Of a stretch of 64,000 nucleotides of DNA, positions 1-59,100 are shown piece after piece (within the stretch, counting starts at the first letter, position 1; the number at the start of each line of letters is the position of its first letter). Origin of the DNA: Owenia fusiformis. Lineage: Eukaryota; Annelida; Polychaeta; Sabellida; Oweniidae. A model generated the notes under the pieces. That model saw only the letters and a program-made list of their open reading frames with translations, made no database searches and had not been told where the DNA came from. The translations under genes and the position numbers were made by a program. The DNA lies in assembly GCA_903813345.2 (NCBI GenBank), contig CAIIXF020000010.1, positions 5,447,169 through 5,511,168 on the forward strand, written 5' to 3'.

Positions 1-3000
1 CATATTTTCATAACATATTTTCATGAACAATTTCTGATGATCAAATGATAGATTTAAGAAAATCAAAATTGACAAGGAACTTTCCAGGTATAGTAAATTA
101 TTCAATGAAATGCTTGAACCAATAATTGTTGAAACATCGAAAGAAATATCTCGTGCCAGGTGAAGTTTTGAAGCAGAGACCTCCACATGGGCAACAGATT
201 TAACCCCTTGCTGTTTGTCAGTTAACCTGGGGCATATTTTCATTCAAAATGCCATTATTAGCTTGTTTATTTACGCCTTTTCTCTAAAAAATTTGTATAA
301 AGTACATGAGATTTTTGCATTTTTGTACAATTTTGGATATTGGCTTTATAGCTTTTTACTTTATTTCTTGATATTATCCCTCATTTTTATAAAATTTGAG
401 ATTTAAGAATATGATCATGTAGTGTTTTATACGAGAGTATATACGTCTGCTATGATGAGTCTCAATGAGGAGTATAAGAGGGTTATCATTGGCACTTGGG
501 GAGCTATCTTCGAGTTGAGATAGAGTTTTGATATGACTTTAATAAAGTGTCCTGACTAGTGTGGTTCTTTGATAACACAACAAACTTACCTACAACTGGA
601 TTTATATTATATGAAGGATATAATAATACCATGCTGGTCAGTAAAAATATACATATTATATTATACCATATTTTCTATGTTATATCATTAAAGAAAATTA
701 AGTTAGTGTGATTTAGAATATATGTTTCCCAAAATCAAATCATTCCTTTGGAACAACAGTCATAAAGTTGAAATATTCTAAAATTATTTATAAGCCTTGG
801 AAACTGTTTATTCTATTATGACCTTCAAAATAATTGATATGTTAGAGCATGGTCATACAAGTGAATCGTATTTATAGAGAAAACATCTGGAAATATATTT
901 TATTAAAGCCACATGTATAAAGTAAACTAAATGTAGCTTTTTTATTTACCTTTGGATATCTTGAGTTCTCTTCCAAGCCAATCAATGTGAAGCCATTATT
1001 AACAGCTTTAGTTGAGAAAAGTAGGGTCAAAAGAATAGTGCTATTTGCCCCAGGGTTAGAATATACCATTGGAAAGACAAAAGTGTCATGAATAAGAATA
1101 TTTTAACATTATAGAATTATGTTACAAACTTGGGTTAATACTTATTTTATGAATTGGAGAAATGTTACTATTATTTCAAAAAGTCTTGTTTCGATGGGAA
1201 AAAAGAATTTACAATAAAAGTTTTTGCATGAAACCATGGGCTTTCAAGAGAAAGCCCGTGATGAACCATATTTCAAAGAGGGACTTTTTCTACCCCAAAT
1301 GACCTTCTAAAATAGAGCTCCTCAGAGCCCTAGGTACGTATTGTTCATTGTTAATATTTAAGTCATAAGAAATGAAATCCTTAAATCTGATATCCCCGGT
1401 TTATTGGAACCTTGGGGCTTATTGGGTCATCAAGTTCAATTTAATAGTATATCTTTGCGTAAGTATTTGGTGAAGACAGTAAATAGCTTCAGATATTTGG
1501 AATACTAAGAAAATAAAATTTCCAATAGTACCCATTTCAGTTTCAAAAAATGTTTTGACAGTTCTAAATTGTTTGTTGTATTCATCAAGGGTAAGTGGGT
1601 GTTGTAGAACATAGTTTAATACTTTTGAAACATCCCTTTTTTACGTAATCTGTGCTTGTCTGAGCTCGTGGTTAACATTTACATGTAGATTTTTTGACAA
1701 TTGATGATAAATGTGCATATAGTCTTAAAATGCACTTGTTTGTGAGAGTCATGGAGCCTTAAAGAGTGCCATGTCTTAGACATCGAAATATTTGAGCAAA
1801 GATAAAAATTATTAAATTGAAGAAAGATTATGCTAACCATGATTAAATAAATAGGGTTGGTTGTTGAATTAACCTCTTAACTACCTGGAGTGACGAGATT
1901 TCTCATCACCTCAGAAATGACCTTGAAACCCAGAGAGACGAGAAAATCTGTCACAAAAATTTTGACTAAAATTGCTTTTATTTGAACAATTTTCATCTAA
2001 TTTCCATTTTAATTGTTTTAAAATGTGTAGAAATGATCTCTGCCATCTAATTTTACTAAGTTGAGCATCTAAAGTTGTATAGGTATGTAGTAAAATGTCA
2101 AAAAGGTGGCAAAAATGAAAAATTCTCTGGTTTCATCTGATTTAAGAGCCTGGGATTCAAGAGGTTAAATTGGAATAAGGTATGACATGTTTGGACAATT
2201 AGGCATAAATTGATGAGGCAAAAAGTCAATACTTGGAAACCCTGTGATTTGAGTATTCATTTTATTATAAAGTAAATACTCAGTATATGTACATATTTCA
2301 GGGATCTAAACATTCCTGCATTTAAAAAAGGTTATAAATGCACAAAAGCAACCACCCTGTTTTTACGAGAACTTGAAATAGTTATTGATCATTTTGTGAA
2401 CACAAGATATTCAGAATACTGAAATAGAAACAGATTAATAAATATCAATATCATAAATAAATAAACAACCACAGTATGTAGCATATCATTCTTGCTTCAT
2501 GTAGTAAACAATTGATAAAGGGTTTATCAGTGTCCAATTAAATTGCAATTTTCTTTCATATAGTAGATCTATTTAAGAACTAAACTGAACTTATAATTGT
2601 TTGATATCTAAGGGACTTCTATTCTAAGGTCATATACGCATACCCAGTTTGATTTCCAATATAAACTTCATACATAACTAATCTAAGATGATCTTAGGAT
2701 GTCCCAGGTCAGTATTGTCCCAAAGAGTAATTATTTTTCCAGATTGATTCTCTCTTCAAAAATTTAAGCGAACATTTATTGATATTATCAAATTCAAAGT
2801 CACTTCCATTTAAAAATGTATCCTAATAAAACATAGTAATAATTACATTTGTAAGCATACGTTAATATGAATATTGACCTTGTACCTAAAAAGACAGTAG
2901 TAGGGGAATCCAAGTCTGTCTTAGTTTATTGATTGGCGGAAATCATTAAAAAGAACGAGCCATTAAGAAGCGTAACTCTCAGTGCCTTGGAATATGATTA

Positions 3001-15719: not shown

Positions 15720-16570
15720 TGATCCTTGAGAGGATCAAACATTTCTGATGGTTATGATAGTTTTCCGATGGTTATGAAAGTTTTCTGATTGATAAGAATT
15801 AATCTGTTGATAGCTATGATAGTTTTCTGAGAGTTGTGATGATGGTTATGATTTTCTAATGGTAAGATAGATTTCTGATGGTTATGTTTGTTTTCTAATG
15901 GTTATGATTTTGTCTAATGGTTATGATTTTGTCTAATGGGTAAGATAGATTTCTGATGGTTATGTTTGTTTTCTAATGGTTATGATTTTGTCTAATGGTT
16001 ATGATTTTGTCTAATGGTTATGATTTTGTCTAATGGGTAAGATAGATTTCTGATGGTTATGTTTGTTTTCTAATGGTTATGATTTTGTCTAATGGTTATG
16101 ATTTTTACTTATGGTTAAGATAGATTTCTGATGGTTATGTTTTCTAATGGTTATGATTTTGTCTAATGGGTAAGATAGATTTCTGATGGTTATGTTTGTT
16201 TTCTAATGGTTATGATTTTGTCTAATGGGTAAGATAGATTTCTGATGGTTATGTTTGTTTTCTAATGGTTATGATTTTGTCTAATGGGTAAGATAGATTT
16301 CTGATGGTTATGTTTGTTTTCTAATGGTTATGATTTTGTCTAATGGTTATGATTTTGTCTAATGGTTATGATTTTGTCTAATGGGTAAGATAGATTTCTG
16401 ATGGTTATGTTTGTTTTCTAATGGTTATGATTTTGTCTAATGGGTAAGATAGATTTCTGATGGTTATGTTTGTTTTCTGATGGTTATGTTTGTTTTCTGA
16501 TGGTTATAATTTTTTCTAATAAGTAAGATAGATTTCTGATAGTTGTGATTATTTTCTGATGGTTAAATAA
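15720..16570. repeat. Minisatellite with higher-order units built from TCTAATGGTTATGATTTTG
   Basis: A short subunit (TTTCTAATGGTTATG and variants) is arranged in a repeating order: TTCTGATGGTTATGTTTG, then one to four TCTAATGGTTATGATTTTG copies, then a TAATGGGTAAGATAGA spacer. The variable copy number inside each higher-order unit suggests unequal exchange. Confidence 0.9.
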
Positions 16571-17700: not shown

Positions 17701-20700
17701 ATGAAAGAGACAATGAGTGGTCGTAAAACGCTACAAAGAAATGGTAGCGGAGGTACTGAGTACCACATAGCTCTCTTGGGGGCTCTGGGGGTCGGCAAGT
17801 CAGGTAAGAGATAGATTCATAATATTTTTTGTGAAATACAATTTTATGACACACAGCTTTTTGTGGATAGTGTCCAGCAGTTGGTGTTTGGCATTTGGTG
17901 TTTGGTGGTCAGCAGTCGGTATCTGTAACAAATGGTAGGTGGTGACATTTTACATGTTTATGCCATGTTCAACAATTTCCAAAGCTGTGGAGTATTGAAA
18001 GATTCACCATTAAGGAGTCCATTGCTTTATATGATTTACATACTTTATCATAGGAGTTTTGGATATCTTATTTTGAAATGTGATGCTTTTGCTTCCTAAT
18101 TCTACAAATAATCTAAGTTAGTCTAAGTTAGGTTAGGGGGTCTCATCTGTACACAGCTACAATGTATCTGTCATGAGAAGAACAAAGGGCAATATGTAAA
18201 AAACTACAAACCTCTTTGAATCATGTGAACCATCAAAATGAATGTTTCATTATACTTTATAATAACTCATACATGAACTTGTTAATAACCGTGCTCTGTA
18301 ATTACATCTTCCACTTAAAGAATCTTGTATTATTAGACCATAATATGAACTTTTGCTCATGGAATTTTTCTTGAGTAAATACAAATTTTTATGTAAATAA
18401 TTATTAATAATCTTATGGAATATTCATGTGTCATTTTGATTAGAATTGCATGATGCCAATTAGCAAATTAAATTAATTAAGATATTAGTCAAGTTGACGA
18501 AAAAGTATATATACTTTTCAATATTCTTATCTAATATTTAAAACTTAGAGGATGGTTTATGTTCAAATGCTTTTAGTTGCTAGTCATTAATCATAAGTTT
18601 GTGTTCTGTTTTTCTTAATCCCCTTGTGTCTATACCTCCACTTGTAAATTACCTCACATTCAAATACCAACTAAACACAGGTAGTGTTAAATCTGTGTTT
18701 AAAAAGACCAAAGTTTAGAAGTTATATGCAATGCTGGAATCACCAAAGTTACCTGGGGTCATTCAAGGTCAAAGGTCAAGCATTAAGTCACTTCATACAA
18801 GACCTCGGGGAATTGTAGTAGGTGAATTCTCGAGACTTTGGATTGAGTTCTGAGGACTTGGGGTAGGTGGATTCTCGAGACTTTGGATTGAGTTCTGAGG
18901 ACTTGGGGTAGGTGAATTCTAGAGACTTTGGATTGAGTTCTGAGGACTTGGGGTTGGTGAATTCTCGAGACTTTGGATTGAGTTCTGTGGACTTTGGGGT
19001 AGATGAATTCTCGAGACTTTGGATTGAGTTCTGTGGACTTGGGGTAGGTGAATTCTCGAGACTGGATTGAGTTCTGAGGACTTGGGGTAGGTGAATTCTA
19101 GAGACTGGATTGAGTTCTGAGGACTTGGGGTAGGTGAATTCCCGAGACATTAGATTGAGTTCTGAGGACTTGGGGTAGGTGAATTCCCGAGACATTGGAT
19201 TGAGTTCTGAAGACTTGGGGTAGGTGAATTCTCGAGACTTTGGATTGAGTTCTGAGGGCTTGGGGTAGGTGAATTCTCGAGACTTTGGATTGAGTTCAGA
19301 GGACTTGGGGTATGTGATCTCTAGAGACTTGCATGGATTGAGCTCTGGGGACTTGGGGTAGGTGAATTCTAGAGACTTGCATGGATTGAGTTCTGGGGAC
19401 TTGGGGTAGATGAGTTCTCGAGACTTTGGATTGAGTTTTGTAGACTTATTTTAACAGAGGATGCAGCTCTTGAGCAAGTTAGTCTGATTGTTCAATAAAT
19501 ACTCCAGAATTACATGATAACATAGTCTAGCATGATAAAACAGACCTGGGTTACAGTTAACCTTTCTGGAAGCAAATAAGTTAAGATTTATAGGGCTATT
19601 TGCATACTAGGTTATAGCCTGGTTCAATTGTAAAGTGGTTGAATATATACTTTTACATGTACATTTTTTGCCTTAAAAGGCCCATTTTTTGAGGCCCCAC
19701 AAAATTTTGGGGCCCAAAAACTGAACATTTTTTCTAGGCCCACTAAAGGTGGGGGGGGGTGGCCCCCTGGATCCGCCATTGGCACCTGTGTTATAAATAT
19801 GTCTTGATTTTCAAATGACATCATTTAAAAAGTTTCTTTATAATTTAAAAAGTTAAATTGTGTCATGTGACAAGTTAACTTTTTATATGTATAGATTAGA
19901 AAATGTAAAGTTAGCATTTAACTTTGGAACCCAGTCATTTAATCTAAGTTAATTGGTATTTTATCCTCACTCTATTTTTTCCTTTCTTTAATAGGCAGTA
20001 GACAATGTTTAGTGGATCAATATTGACTTATGTTAAAGATGAGTTGGCTGACCTTAGATGCTTTCAGCTAAACCTGGCCAGCAATTATTTAAACATGTCA
20101 AAATATTTAGGAATCTGTTAATTTGATCCTCTTGCAACTATTATAGGCTATTTTGGGTTGAGTTTATTGTCAAAATACTGTATAATACAATCATTGGTAT
20201 CTTTGAGTAATTCTACTTCCACTTTTGACCAAGAAAACAAATGCAAGTGGTGAAAGTGAAAATTCTTTTAATGAAATGAAAGAAATTATTTCACCGAATC
20301 CTATGAGATATATGATAGCTACATGTAAATTATATTTGTTTGTATCTCTGATATTTGGAACCACAGCTTCTATTTTTATTGACTCCAACATTTTTGTAGA
20401 TGATGTTATGTGGTTGGCAATCAGCAGTCTGTGTTAGGCTTCTGTAACAAATGGCATGTGGTGACAAATTGCATGTTATAGCCTTGTTTATTTAACTATT
20501 TTGATTTACCAGACATTCAGCCTTGTTTTATTATTTTTGTGTTTTGTTCAGTTAATTTTCCCTTACCTTAGACTTTTATTTTTAAATTTTAATTTTTAAA
20601 GAAGTGTTTCAATTTACAGAAAAAAACCATTGTTCATTTTTATATCTAAACATTGACCATTGACAACTGCTCAACCTTCCAATTTATCTCAAGATAAAAT

Positions 20701-26902: not shown

Positions 26903-28554
26903 TTTTATACAATAAAAATCGCATTTCACACAATAAGTATTGCATTTCATACAGAGAATATTGTGAATGATACAAAAACAACTGAATTTGATAAAATAAA
27001 TATTCTATGAGATTACAATTAAAATTGTATAATGAAAATAGATGTTTTGATGATCAAAGCATGATGTAGATTATGACTGACACACTAAAGATTGATGTTA
27101 TAATAAATTGCCATTTTCTGTTTTTGAAAACAGAATTTACTTCGTGATGAAATGAATTGTCAATGACAGAATATTAACCTTTGTGAATGGTTGACCTTTT
27201 TGCCAGTCATATAAAAACAGTTTTGCCATCTATACAAAAAAAGCTGTAAAAAAACTACAAAACTATTTATATAAGTCATGCATGAGGGAGATTCATGTTA
27301 TATTTGTTATATAAAAATGTGCCATATTGTTTTTTTTGTTAATTAAAAAAAAAGAAAAAGAAAATTAAAAGTTATTACAAATAAAATGTCAAGTGACATA
27401 ATAATATCTTATTGGTACAATGAAAACAATAGAAAGAGAAGTTTCCAACTTATAACTTACAAAAGATTTACCAGCATAATATGTATACATTTGCATAACA
27501 TAAGTTCAAGTATCCTACTCCCTTACTGGAATAGTGTTGGCATTTTGAAAGTGAGTCTAACACTGAGGAAATTGTCGATTTTAGAAAACGAATTGTCTAC
27601 AGGGTGACCTAAAAAGGTACAGACCAAAAAGTAGACTTTGAAATAGCTTTGATAATTTGTGAAATACAAATATAATATCATGTGCTATATTTTTACTCTC
27701 ATTGTGACAAACTTATAAAAAATGTTTTAGCATGATGCCACAAACAATATAAAAATTGAAAAATGGAAAAGTATATGTCAGCATTCATGCATAGCATTTA
27801 TTAACTTGCAATAACATTTGTGTGAAATTCTGTGAAGCGACCAATGTAATAAATAATTAGTGATTTGAAATAATAGTTGATGTCTATATTTCTAAGAATA
27901 CCTCCAAACGTTCATGCAGACAAACAATGTCAGGAGCTATACAGACTGGTGTAGGTCTGATTTTCCAATTGACCATAGAATCATAAAAGATGCATTCATC
28001 ATAATAGATTTGGTATGACTTTGTCACACACAGGAGATAAAAGACAAAACTATGAGAAATCACAGTGAAACCATGAATAGTTCAGACTTATCTGAGATAA
28101 CTTGGGCCCACTTTTTGGGTCACTCTGTACCTATGAGGTCAATGTATTAGTGCCTGTGTATCTACTATTCTAGTAATATGCAGCTTTGGAAGTCCAAAAT
28201 TCATTGTGTAACAACATTAAAAAATTGAAAATACTTGTAAAAAAATGTATTTATATTTTATAATGACTACACATTGCAGTTTTGTTATTCAAGGATATTG
28301 GGCGATCTTAAATATAAAGATAACTATAATTTATTAACACAGTTCATGTACTTTTATATTTGGTTCCTATTTTAAACCAAAATATGTCTTATGTGTCCAA
28401 ATTGTAGAAACAAATAAATATAAAGCAATAAAAAACGTTCAAGTAATAACTACTATGTCAAGCATTTTAGTTTTAATTATTTTTAAGAGATTCGCATGTG
28501 TATCATGAATATTGATTCCACAATGTGTGCTTTATCTTTATAAGTCCCACTTCC

Positions 28555-29040
28555 ACAGTCAGACCTTGATGTTTCATTTCAGCCAAACCTTGATGTTTCA
28601 TTCCAGTCAAACCTTGATGTTTCATTCCAGTCAAACGTTGATGTTTCATTCCAGTCAGACCTTGATGTCTCATTCCAGTCAAACCTTGATATTTCATTCC
28701 AGTCAAACCTTGATGTTTCATTCAAGTCAAACCTTGATATTTCATTCCAGTCAAACCTTGATGTTTCATTCAAGTCAAACCTTGATGTTTCATTCAAGTC
28801 AAACCTTGATGTTTCATTCCAGTCAAACATTGATGTTTCATTCCAGTCAAACCTTGATGTTTCATTCAAGTCAAACCTTGATGTCTCATTCCAGTCAAAC
28901 CTTGATGTTTCATTGAAGTCAAACCTTGATGTTTCATTCAAGTCAACTTTGATGTTTCATTCCAGTCAAACCTTGATGTTTCATTACAGTCAAACCTTGA
29001 TGTTTCATTCAAGTCAAACCTTGATGTTTCTTTCAAGTCA
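28555..29040. repeat. 24-bp minisatellite, about 20 units
   Basis: The unit is CAGTCAAACCTTGATGTTTC plus ATTC, with CAAGTC and CCAGTC variants. Since 24 is divisible by three, both strands stay open for 120-134 codons; these are not genes. A looser relative with CAGTCAAACCTTGCACAAC units continues at about 29500-29850. Confidence 0.9.
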
Positions 29041-29286
29041 TTTCATTACATGTAAAATTGCATCTAGAATGCATGTGGTTTAAAAAAGTATTTACCAAGT
29101 TCGAAAATTCAATTTTCTTTGAAAATGTGATTTCTAGGTCGGGGAGATTCCAGTTAGACCCCATGTTACAAAACCACAAAAAGTGAAATATCATTTCCTG
29201 TTTTGGGGAGATAATATTTTCTTTTACTGGACAGATTTTCGTTGATTTCTTATTTTATATAGTATAACTATCAGACACGTAGGGAT

Positions 29287-51390: not shown

Positions 51391-51700
51391 AATAAATGTT
51401 TTTAATAAATCACACTTGATATATTTGGATAGGCATGGTTTAAATAAGAAAGCATTCTCTTATTCACTAAACCCATTTTATCCATAGAAATTAATAGACA
51501 ATTAACATTGTCATTACTCAGTAGAAAATCATTGAATGTTAAATAAATGTTTTTAATAAATCACACTTGATATATTTGGATAGGCATGGTTTAAATAAGA
51601 AAGCATTCTCTTATTCACTAAACCCATTTTATCCATAGAAATTAATAGACAATTAACATTGTCATTACTCAGTAGAAAATCATTGAATGTTAAACATACA
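51391..51700. repeat. 151-bp tandem duplication, nearly identical
   Basis: The block starting AATAAATGTTTTTAATAAATC is repeated at 51542 with essentially no differences down to AAATCATTGAATGTTAAA. A decayed third relative (AAATCATTGAATGTAAAACA with TTTACCCTGGCCTTATGCAG) follows at about 51840-51910. Either a recent duplication or an assembly effect. Confidence 0.85.
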
Positions 51701-53184: not shown

Positions 53185-56100
53185 CTACATTGGCTCATGC
53201 ATTGTTAATGTCTGGAAAGACAGCGCCTTCAAGATTTCTTTGCGATGAGCCTCATTCTGAGTGTCAATGTTGTTGCCACCAACCTGACCATCTTCATACC
53301 TGGAATTAGTCAGAAAATAGACGTCAACATAGACATGGTGTAGAGGAAGCCAGAATTAGAATAGACGTCAACATAGACATGGTGTAGAGGAAGCCAGAAT
53401 TAGACTAGACTTCAACATAGGTTGTGATATAGATGAAGCCAGAGTAACAGCAAGTACAGATGTGTAATTCATAAAAAATTGAACTTTAATGTCCTAAGTA
53501 CAGGAAGACAAAAGAAAATTCATGAGGATTCAAAAACATGTAAGAAAGTTATTCCAAAATTAGAAAATTAGTTATGTGTTACCCTGTATTTTATAGAAAC
53601 CAAGTCAAATTAAAAAGGATGACATGGCGAACCAGAGAGGTCCTGTAGCACTTTTTCAAAGTGCGATAACAATGCATCGAGGGTGGGACAATTATTTAAA
53701 ACTCAGAAATAATCTTACCTTATTGCGATCTAAATCACTCTATCTATATATAGTTATCTAAATATAGTTTCACTATTATTGTCTTAACCACATAATACTT
53801 TCTTATAAGCCTTTCGGAATTGTTTGTTTTTCCAGCCATATATAAATGGATTCACCACACTGTTCAAACTAGCTAATAATCCAGATACAGTAAATAATAC
53901 ACCAACTGTTTCAGTCTGATTTGGAAGAGGGGTGTTGCAAAAACCCACAATAAATAAAGGAGCCCAGCAAAACAGATAAATCCCAACAATGATTCCAAGA
54001 ACTTTAGCTGATTTGATATTTGCTCTATTGTCTACTGGCTTACCGCCAGGGTTCATGGTTACTTCAAGCATTCTTATTTTGTTCGCTTGCTTTTGAGCTT
54101 GGGCGAATATTGCAGCGTATAATCCAACAATTGTTGCTGTAGCAACAATGAAAAATCCACCAGCAACACCAGAGAGAAAATACATTGGGACAATTTTATA
54201 GAAGTAGCATTCAAGTTCCTGCAAGGGTTTATGCCACCACACTAAAATTATACTTGTCAAAACACTAATGCTCCAGGTAACTGTGATCATGATACAAAGC
54301 CTCATCCTGGTGATGGTTGTTGTGTAATGTAGCGGGTAAGAAACTGCGACAAATCTATCAATAGCGATACAAACTAGTGTTATCACTGAGGCTTGGGAGC
54401 ATAATGTAAACAATACATATCTTGCTAGGCATGTTGGGAAATTACCCCAGACATAATAATCTGCGATGCTAAATGACGTCACCAACCCCACGATGAGATC
54501 AGCAACTGCTAAGCTCATCATAAGGAATGATGTGTCCCGTTGAAGTTCCGTATATTTCAAAATGATGAAAATTGTGAGCCCATTTCCAACACATATAAGC
54601 AACAATATTATGACACTGACCACAGTGTAAATGTAGTAGGAGGTGGGAATCTCATACACATTAGTAGATGTCTCTGATGTATTGTACATATCTGTCACAT
54701 TCATCATTGATGTAATTTCTGTGACATATTATATTGATATATCATCTCTGATAGGTTGTACATATCTGTCACATTCATAATTGATGTTGTATATATCTGT
54801 CACATTCATAATTGATGTTGTACATATCTGTCACATTCATAATTGATGTGTACATATCTGTCACCTTCATAATTGATGTTGTACATATCTGTTTCATTCA
54901 TAATTGATGTTGCACATATCTGTCACATTCATAATTGATGTTGCACGTATCTGTCACATTCATAATTGATGTTGTATATATCTGTCACATTCATAATTGA
55001 TGTTGTACATATCTGTCACATTCATAATTGATGTTGTACATATCTATCACATTCATAATTGATGTTGTACTGTACATATATGTCACTTTGATGTTGTACA
55101 TATCTGTCACATTCATAATTGATGTTGTACATATCTGTCACATTCATAATTGATGTTGTACATATCTGTCACATTCATAATTGATGTTGTACATATCTGT
55201 CACATTCATAATTTATGTTGTACATATCTGTCACATTCATAATTGATGTTGTACATATCTGTCACATTCATAATTGATGTTGTACATATCTGTCACATTC
55301 ATAATTGATGTTGTACATATCTGTCACATTCATAATTGATGTTGTACATATCTGTCACATTCATAATTGATGTTGTACATATCTGTCACATTCATAATTT
55401 ATGTTGTACATATCTGTCACATTCATAATTGATGTTGTACATATCTGTCACATTCATAATTGATGTTGTACATATCCATCTGTCACATTCATCATCTATA
55501 ATATTCATCGAAATCTCTAATCTACCTTGATCGATTAAAAGTATTTAGTTAGGCTAAACTAAAGTCAGTGCAAAAATCAATTTCCACATTCTCATCCATA
55601 TTTGATGTTCCTTGAAGATAGCCATACAATTGAATTGTGGTTTAATCATATGGTTCACATTATTGCCCAATTATACTGGAGAATCCACTTGTCCATAATA
55701 CTGTAGTAAGTCAATCCCAATTTTGAATGCATTATCTCTTAGCCCATAACAATGCTACTTCTTCATCAATGTGTTACTGCTCTCCTGTGACATTATCATT
55801 CTTCAATCAATGTGTGAAAAAGCAATTGCATAACAGGATCCTAATATGAGCTATAACAATGATCCAATTGTTCCCATTCAATTGTCTGAGACAATGACCA
55901 ATCACTTAAATATCTGATATCTTGCCAATGAAAATACCACCATGTCACCTCCTCCATTAGTGAATCAGGCTGTTGTTCTTGTATGCATTTGAGTTGATAA
56001 CATAAGAAGTTGTAAAACCTATGATGATGCTGCCTTTCATAACTTCTACTTTAACTCCAAATTGTTACATTATTAATGAGTGTACATTTGAATTAAAACT

Positions 56101-59100
56101 AGAAAAAACAGTAACTCAATGGAGTAGCAAATTAGTGGTAAATTAGTGACCATCTTGAAAATTCCATCTTGAACAGAGTATATCAGCTTCTAAAATTGAA
56201 ATCAAATCCATTCACTGGTATCTGAGTTATCAAAGATTACATTTTTTATGAAAAATGGTGGCCATTTTAAAATACAGCCACCATCTTGTTTACGAAAAAT
56301 GGTGGCCATTTTAAAATATATCTGCCATCTTGAAAATTTCTTATGTAGAGATCTCTTTTGTCCCTAGGTAGTAGCATATAAAATTTGAACCATTTAAACC
56401 ATACACCCCATGCACAACCTGAATAATAGATGCTAAACATATATTTATTTGCCTTAACTTATAGCTGAATGGAACATTAAGTGATATGAAAAAACCTAGG
56501 TCAATACAATCTAATCCCATTAAATCACACAATGTCTACAAGCCTTAAAATACAAATCTGACTATTACTAGTAAGTGATTCCACTAATGTAGTGCTATTG
56601 TCCTATTTCTGATAATAGCTAACAATATGGATGGGAGAGAAACATATTCAAGGGGCTTCAAAAAACTTAGCAAATAAACATGTACTCTATTTAACTTTCC
56701 AATTACATGTGTCATTGTCAAGGTGTCCTTCAATGACCCGAATTGCTTCATGATATACCGCTTTGACCTTTCAGAATCAATGTGACCGTGACATTAATGT
56801 CAAGTTGTCCTTCAATGAACACAATAGATTCAAGATATACAGTTGTTCTTCCATAACCCAATGACTTTACAATATACTGCTTTGACCCTTCAGAATCCAT
56901 TTGACCGTGACATATTCATAAGTTGTTCTTCCATAACCCAATGACTTTACAATATACTGCTTTGAGCTTTCAGAATCTATTTGACCTTGACATATTCATA
57001 AGATGTTCTTCCATAACCCAATGGCTTTACAATATACTGCTTTGAGCTTTCAGAATCCATTTGACCTTGACATATTCATAAGATGTTCTTCCATAACCCT
57101 TTTAACTTTACTTTGACCCTTCAGAATCCATTTGACCTTGTCATATTCATAAATTGTTCTTCCATAACCCAATGGCTTTACATAATACTGCTTTGACCTT
57201 TCAGAATCCATTTGACCTTGTCATATTCATAAATTGTTCTTCCATAACATAATGATTTTACAATATACTGCATTGACCTTTCAGAATCCATTTGACCTTG
57301 TCATATTCATAAATTGTTCTTCCATAACCAAATGGCTTTACAATATACTGCTTTGACCTTTCAGAATCCATTTGACCTCGTATTCATTAGTTGTTCTTCC
57401 ATAACATAATGATTTTACAATATACTGCATTGACCTTTCAGAATCCATTTGACCTTGTCATATTCATAAATTGTTCTTCCATAACCCAATGACTTTACAT
57501 AATACTGCTTTGACCTTTCAGAATCCATTTGACCTCGTATTCATTAGTTGTTCTTCCATAACATAATGATTTTACAATATACTGCATTGACCTTTCAGAA
57601 TCCATTTGACCTTGACATATTCATAAGTTGTTCTTCCATAACCCAATGACTTTACAATATACTGCTTTGACCTTTCAGAATCCATTTGACCTTGACATAA
57701 TATACATAATATACTTGTATAAGTTGTTCTTCCATAACCCCAATGACTTTAGAATATACTGCGCTGATCTTTCAAATTTCTTGAAACCTTGATGTATAAA
57801 TGTCAAGTTGTTCTTCCATGACCCAAAAAGCTTGATGAAATACCTCTCTGACCTTTCAGAATTGACTTATTATTGTCAAGTCGTCATTCCAAAACTTTGG
57901 TGATATACTATTTTATTGTCCTTTCAGAATTCATGTGACATTGATGTTTACATGTAAAAGTATTAGCCATTCAATTCTATATCATTATACTGCCATATTA
58001 TTGTTGAAAAGAAGAAAGAGAATTGGCCATACTATTTTTCCCTGGTGGATTCCAAAGAGTGCAATTGTCCAATGTGACAATTCTAACCTGCATGTTTTCT
58101 ACTGTTTAGAAGGCTGTCAACCATAGCATCCTATGTCATAGGCTTTTGACAAGTCTTTCAGTTGGTAATGCATCAAACAGATTTAAAGTAAAAATGGCAT
58201 CAATGTAGTCACCCTCACCTTATAGTTTGATCCAGTGTTAGTACAAGTACTAATTGTCTCATATTTAATCTCCAAGGACAAAAGCCATGTTGTATTTGAT
58301 ACATAAAAGTGACTCAGAGATAAACAAGCTTTCTTTTGTATATTTTACCAAGTTTTAAGTTATTTTTCTCAATTATTGCTTAAATGATTGATTTTAACGA
58401 TCAATTTATATTGTTCTGTTGAATACTCACACAAAAAAGAATCTTGTGCATACATGGTCTGGGTTAGGAGACACCCAGATGTTGCCGTGCTTCTTTAACT
58501 CTTTTGTTGTGACCACTGAAAATCACAAAAATACCGAATTGTTGAGAATTTTAGATAGAAACAAGGCATTAACATGCAAAATGTCACCACCCACCATTTG
58601 TTACAGATACTGAATGCTGAACTCAAAACATCAACACCATAAAAGTTTGAGACCATAACAATATGTCACCACTTGTGATGATGACATAATAAAATAATAA
58701 AAACAGTTATACTTTATACACTACAAAATATAGCTGTGCGACAAAATCAAGTAATAGGTTTATCTGTCTGATATACAAACATGCATATATAAGGGATATC
58801 TCACGAGGGATGAACCCAATATCTAAACCGACCGTACCGTTTTCTAATTTTCTTTCAATTTTTTTTCTATTTTTTTTATTTTTTCTATTTTTTCAATCTT
58901 TTTTCAATTTTTTATTTTTTCCAAATTTTAATATCTAAACCGACCGTACATAACTGCTTTATCCTATACCAAATAGAGTTTTCTAATTTTTTCAATCTTT
59001 TTTCACATTTTTTCAATTTTTTTCACATTTTTCCAATTTTTTCAATTTTTTTCTTTTTTTCAATTTTTTCACATTTTTTCTTTTTTTTCAATTTTTTCTT

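Follow-up and report, generated by a model that had tools for sequence, protein, structure and literature searches.

The DNA described here raises the question of how a tandem repeat came to carry the beginning of a protein-coding sequence, namely whether the repeat was born from the start of a gene or the start of the gene from the repeat, and whether the repeat belongs to the gene's mRNA. The window (the whole 64,000-nucleotide stretch of Owenia fusiformis DNA that was analysed) contains on its minus strand an uninterrupted open reading frame of 307 amino acids (54707..53784), which opens MMNVTDMYNTSE... and whose start ATG is at 54707/54704. The encoded protein is a class A (rhodopsin-type) G protein-coupled receptor (GPCR), since it matches the PF00001 (7tm_1) profile over its full length (E 2.6e-42; residues 41-290; profile positions 1-260 of 260). 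Among the best 60 of 750 matches, the structures closest to it in sequence belong to trace-amine and adrenergic receptors, and position 3.32 is presumably Phe (counted by hand), so that an aminergic ligand is not supported.

On the 5′ side of this gene Tandem Repeats Finder (TRF) reports an array at 54755-55476 with a period of 31 bp, 23.4 copies, and 93% matches, whose units, read on the minus strand as the sense strand of the receptor, mostly carry ATG AAT GTG ACA GAT ATG TAC AAC. In the unit listing a start-type ATG is present in 23 upstream copies, namely 22 copies matching the core sequence described below and one altered copy at the far end, and additionally one degenerate partial copy near 55085, so the original prediction of about 24 copies was close to the actual content. 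The far-end copy (55458..55495, minus strand), with which the array extends to 55495, has a 4-base insertion and carries ATGATG as in the gene, unlike the interior units. Most substitutions lie in ten units towards the gene (55056 to 54778), while the eleven full units between 55457 and 55147 are identical except for one shared variant, AACATAAATT, found in units 55426 and 55240; the separation of these two units is 186 bp, or six units, and therefore suggests that a block of six units was recently duplicated in the distal array. Beyond the array no homology to the unit was found in the far flank 55493-55560 (383 of 500 shuffles were as good), and the raw score of 22 between this flank and the spacer described below, obtained without shuffles, was set aside as evidence.

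Satellite DNA forms long arrays or occupies many genomic loci, and minisatellites typically differ in copy number between individuals. The tandem array, which is real, had been called a satellite, but minisatellite is the better term for a repeat of about 0.8 kb with one locus found in the assembly, where repeat counts are lower bounds. Its 31-bp unit and 23.4 copies agree with the definition of a minisatellite as tandem units of 15-100 bp, as given in the accessible text of PMC3618361.

The relation between the unit and the gene start was estimated with the 23-base core ATGAATGTGACAGATATGTACAA, which at no more than 3 mismatches has 23 matches in the window, that is, the gene start and 22 array copies, with no mismatch at the former and in 15 of the latter, while in 100 shuffles the mean number of matches was 0.00. 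The claim that the array repeats the first coding bases of the GPCR is thereby confirmed. The gene-side copy itself (ATCAATGATGAATGTGACAGATATGTACAAT; 54681..54711, minus strand) includes the initiator ATG(s) and the MNVTDMYN codons and differs from the unit at 2 of 31 bases: one difference lies within the DNA of MNVTDMYN (AAC/AAT, both Asn) and the second one before the ATG, where the gene has ATGATG and the units ATTATG. Thus the difference of a single base that had been described holds for the part encoding MNVTDMYN, and two positions differ over the full 31 bp. Further into the coding sequence homology to the unit was not detectable (470 of 500 shuffles as good for 81 nt and 244 of 500 for 45 nt).

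The array adjoins the gene but was not exactly "directly upstream" of it, as 48 bp (54708..54755, minus strand) lie between the ATG and the last clean unit. In wraparound alignment with the unit this spacer scored 41, which was reached by 13 of 4000 dinucleotide shuffles, by 22 of 4000 shuffled decoy units, and by 0 of 5252 window chunks; in the first spacer test 2 of 500 shuffles were as good. The signal sits in 54708-54740 (3 of 1500 shuffles), with 67 of 1500 for 54708-54731 alone, and the array-side half 54732-54755 alone was not significant (355 of 1500). The spacer is thus probably decayed repeat, at least across 54708-54740, and for this reason the gene start may be read as the terminal unit of the array. 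Because the spacer appears homologous to the unit and the later coding sequence does not, the repeat runs across the start codon, and its last trace is near codon nine. A first duplication reaching further into the gene was considered and rejected, since 1557 of 5000 shuffles were as good in the comparison of the spacer with later coding sequence (other controls: 57 of 400 anchored, 2113 of 8526 window chunks). The contrast between the kept gene copy and the decayed spacer, considered as a sign of selection on the gene copy, was weak (P 0.007 with gaps and 0.09 with substitutions only).

In the 498-Mb assembly the unit at no more than 3 mismatches was found at this locus alone, again as 22 array copies and the gene start, the reversed-pattern control gave 0 matches, and these repeat counts are lower bounds. 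The DNA query of the region (891 bp) pointed to one other place, C12:245508, with 69% identity; it was rejected as a second locus, being a separate unrelated array with 37- and 58-bp units rich in ATGTACA-like sequence. Within the window TRF rows occupy 6039 of 64000 bases, and other long arrays lie at 18818-19437, 28556-29040, 15840-16565, and 56841-57699; in two of these arrays long frames have stayed open (18788-19450, minus strand; 28544-29083, plus strand). A 151-bp tandem duplication at 51391-51694 has copies that are 100% identical, which indicates either a very recent event or an assembly effect.

In order of rank, the three next-best matches of a protein search of the assembly (130 rows, window gene included) and the 60 matches following them, at 1.8 kb each, formed the survey of other receptors; two rows in this range were skipped, one with an internal stop and one partial, and L004, which is the same gene as L006, was counted once. 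For the array counts the start was residue 1 of the window receptor projected onto the match (60 receptors) or the first ATG of the frame (three receptors), and the projected starts are approximations both in these counts and in the comparison of each start with its own upstream sequence. TRF arrays with a score of at least 100 were found within 1.5 kb above the projected start in 17 of the 63 other receptors (7 of the 17 with at least 5 copies, two at least 500 bp long), so an array near a gene is ordinary here. The match between start region and upstream sequence is another matter: the window gene scored 74 (the largest of its 20 shuffles reached 28), L019 scored 41, and the remaining 62 of 64 receptors scored 30 or less. 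The L019 score comes from a small repeat, and the sole Met of that receptor lies 57 bases below the projected start. Among the best 20 of the 64 receptors, L047, L014, and L018 beat the best of their own 20 shuffles by 1, and none of the other receptors in these 20, the window gene and L019 aside, beat its own shuffles. According to these data the window gene is the only one of the 64 receptors with a strong array match to its own start region. One receptor of the survey, L003, is spread over two overlapping frames (96-1044, minus strand), by a frameshift, an intron, or an assembly error.

Unit identity, the single locus found, the array structure, and the ATG content considered below are observations; the direction in which the array grew, its neutrality, and its exclusion from the mRNA are what we infer from them. 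The growth of the array from the gene start, as in the original prediction, is the better-supported direction as judged from the sequence of a single genome, but tandem duplication is symmetric, and therefore no single-genome test can fix the direction. For N-terminal features each open frame was read from its first ATG, and the comparison was confined to genes with the TM1 GN motif, found in 47 of 64 receptors (46 of 63 without the window gene). Of the other receptors, 26 of 46 have an early N-glycosylation sequon (N at residues 2-4), compared with 26 of 1102 background ATGs in the window that have 15 open codons, the compared receptors being paralogues, some of them nearly identical, and hence not independent; with 30 open codons the background was 9 of 444. 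Since the early sequon is frequent in the family, a start with MNVT is what one would expect from a family member but not from a random repeat. In the window receptor the TM1 GN motif lies 40 residues from the first Met, the median being 42 (n = 47, itself included), and ATGATG is common to the gene and the far-end copy (55492), while interior units have TTATG. The early sequon, the typical N-terminal length, and ATGATG at both ends favour the direction from gene to array. The nearest paralogue (C7) is 49% identical to the window receptor, and no large array was found within its 3.4 kb; its frame opens MLPCQQNSIHDRKMNNTS, so that MNNTS aligns with the window start only through the second Met, and a start at MNNTS is possible in this paralogue.

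The consequences for translation depend on whether the array is transcribed. Array and spacer (55500 to 54708) contain 70 sense ATGs, spread over all three frames, of which 21 are ATG-stop and 45 have A/G at -3, none of these 45 with G at +4, so the expectation of many upstream AUGs is correct if the array is transcribed. The related suggestion that the array seeds alternative starts is not supported for the receptor, since the receptor frame is open for just 7 codons above its ATG and therefore no array ATG can extend the receptor without splicing. No good splice acceptor was found near the ATG; the three candidates have 7-8 pyrimidines of 17, and with such pyrimidine-poor sites the removal of the array by splicing is no more than possible. 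The receptor's ATGATG is the point at which four upstream ORFs terminate. In 25 of the 26 ATGA-type upstream ORFs the stop is a TGA that overlaps an ATG further along, the exception starting from 54809, and those from 54778 and 54745 terminate in the receptor's ATGATG. This relay was rejected as a sign of selection, because any unit that contains ATGA and has a length of 1 modulo 3 produces it. The predicted RNA structure of 54700-54990 does not stand out (z 0.69, with an equally good or better fold in 151 of 200 shuffles).

The explanation that we prefer, with a probability of roughly 0.6 as a whole, is that the gene start was duplicated on its 5′ side into an array which is neutral and excluded from the mRNA. 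A segment of about 31 bp over the receptor start codon would have been tandemly duplicated on the 5′ side and expanded to about two dozen copies via slippage or unequal exchange, leaving the gene's own start as the terminal copy with an N-terminus still typical of the family. The stretch beside the gene would then have decayed, and the distal array would have been homogenised later, including the six-unit block step. Since the ATGs of the array would interfere with initiation at the receptor's own start, the working mRNA most likely omits the array, either by starting in the spacer or the last units or by an intron in the 5′ leader; the array itself is most likely neutral. Against this explanation count the symmetry of tandem duplication, the weak contrast between gene copy and spacer, the lack of visible repeat in the later coding sequence, the dependence of the C7 alignment on the second Met, the non-independence of the paralogues, and the poor splice acceptors. 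The opposite origin, in which the array came first and the receptor captured its start codon from the terminal unit of a neighbouring minisatellite, replacing an older start, agrees with the reading of spacer and gene start as a continuous part-decayed array with the ATG within its last unit; it is nevertheless unlikely, as the encoded start is typical of the family in both its early sequon and its length, and the G of the gene's ATGATG is present at both ends of the array.

Less likely again is a receptor on its way out, whose translation or transcription is crippled by expansion within the 5′ leader or promoter: the 70 sense ATGs, with their ATG-stop and A/G contexts, and the four ORFs stopping at ATGATG speak for this reading, but the ORF is intact, with 307 codons and a full-length 7tm_1 match. 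The stop-start overlaps of 25 of the 26 ATGA-type ORFs, the last of them at the receptor's ATGATG, could also pass ribosomes along an array contained in the mRNA to the receptor ATG, with copy number tuning the output; this is very improbable, given that unit length and ATGA already produce the pattern, that the ORF from 54809 breaks the chain, and that RNA folding is unremarkable. A copy-number-dependent device of termination and reinitiation in the mRNA, acting as relay or brake to set receptor output and built from repeats of the gene's own start, is to be regarded as about as improbable. Equally slight is the chance that the copies were made or misplaced during assembly; a single assembly was compared and a second copy of the locus was not found in it, but the scattered substitutions, the indels, and the decayed edge are unlike the stutter of one read. 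In summary, as judged from the DNA, the array is a single-locus minisatellite in an unusual position and with no evident function. On the preferred explanation of duplication from the gene, it seems to document in nature how coding sequence can give rise to a minisatellite. RNA running through the array, if made, would contain false start signals by the dozen, and the locus therefore lends itself to testing how a gene deals with so many upstream AUGs.

Two other receptors of the same assembly likewise have tandemly duplicated DNA where the N-terminus is encoded; their repeats, unlike the window array, have units of about 15 bp, are in frame, and lie within the coding sequence. In L012 (C2:9093358-9095158, minus strand, about 364-265) an in-frame minisatellite of about 15 bp forms the receptor N-terminus MININVTQANMTTDNVTPGNVTP..., encodes serial glycosylation sequons MININVTQANMTTDNVTPGNVTPDNVTQVNVT, and shares AATGTGACA with the window unit, and in L002 (from C12; positions 2392-2421 of L002) the receptor frame opens MNTTTMNTTT, the start codon being part of a 15-bp duplication. 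Among the titles and abstract openings of open papers listed for repeats at or above start codons, no description of an array whose unit copies a start codon was found. The closest examples found of repeats in 5′ leaders are those of human thymidylate synthase and of human DDX3Y. The 28-bp unit of the human thymidylate synthase gene is not known to contain a start codon. According to the accessible parts of PMC3320636 and PMC2528158, this repeat is polymorphic with two or three copies in the 5′ UTR; it resembles the window array as a short repeated unit and differs by being polymorphic and by having only two or three copies. Reinitiation is treated in PMC5972666, as far as its accessible text extends. 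The MSY2 minisatellite 5′ of human DDX3Y was amplified in primates and lies partly in a long 5′ UTR, with units of about 100 nt in three or four human copies 885 nt above the ATG, and transcription from the repeat has been demonstrated (PMC3039753, accessible part). MSY2 and the window array have in common that they are tandem repeats located 5′ in a gene. In contrast to MSY2 with its transcription, the window array is read here as DNA only, and the same part of that source describes no unit copying the start codon.
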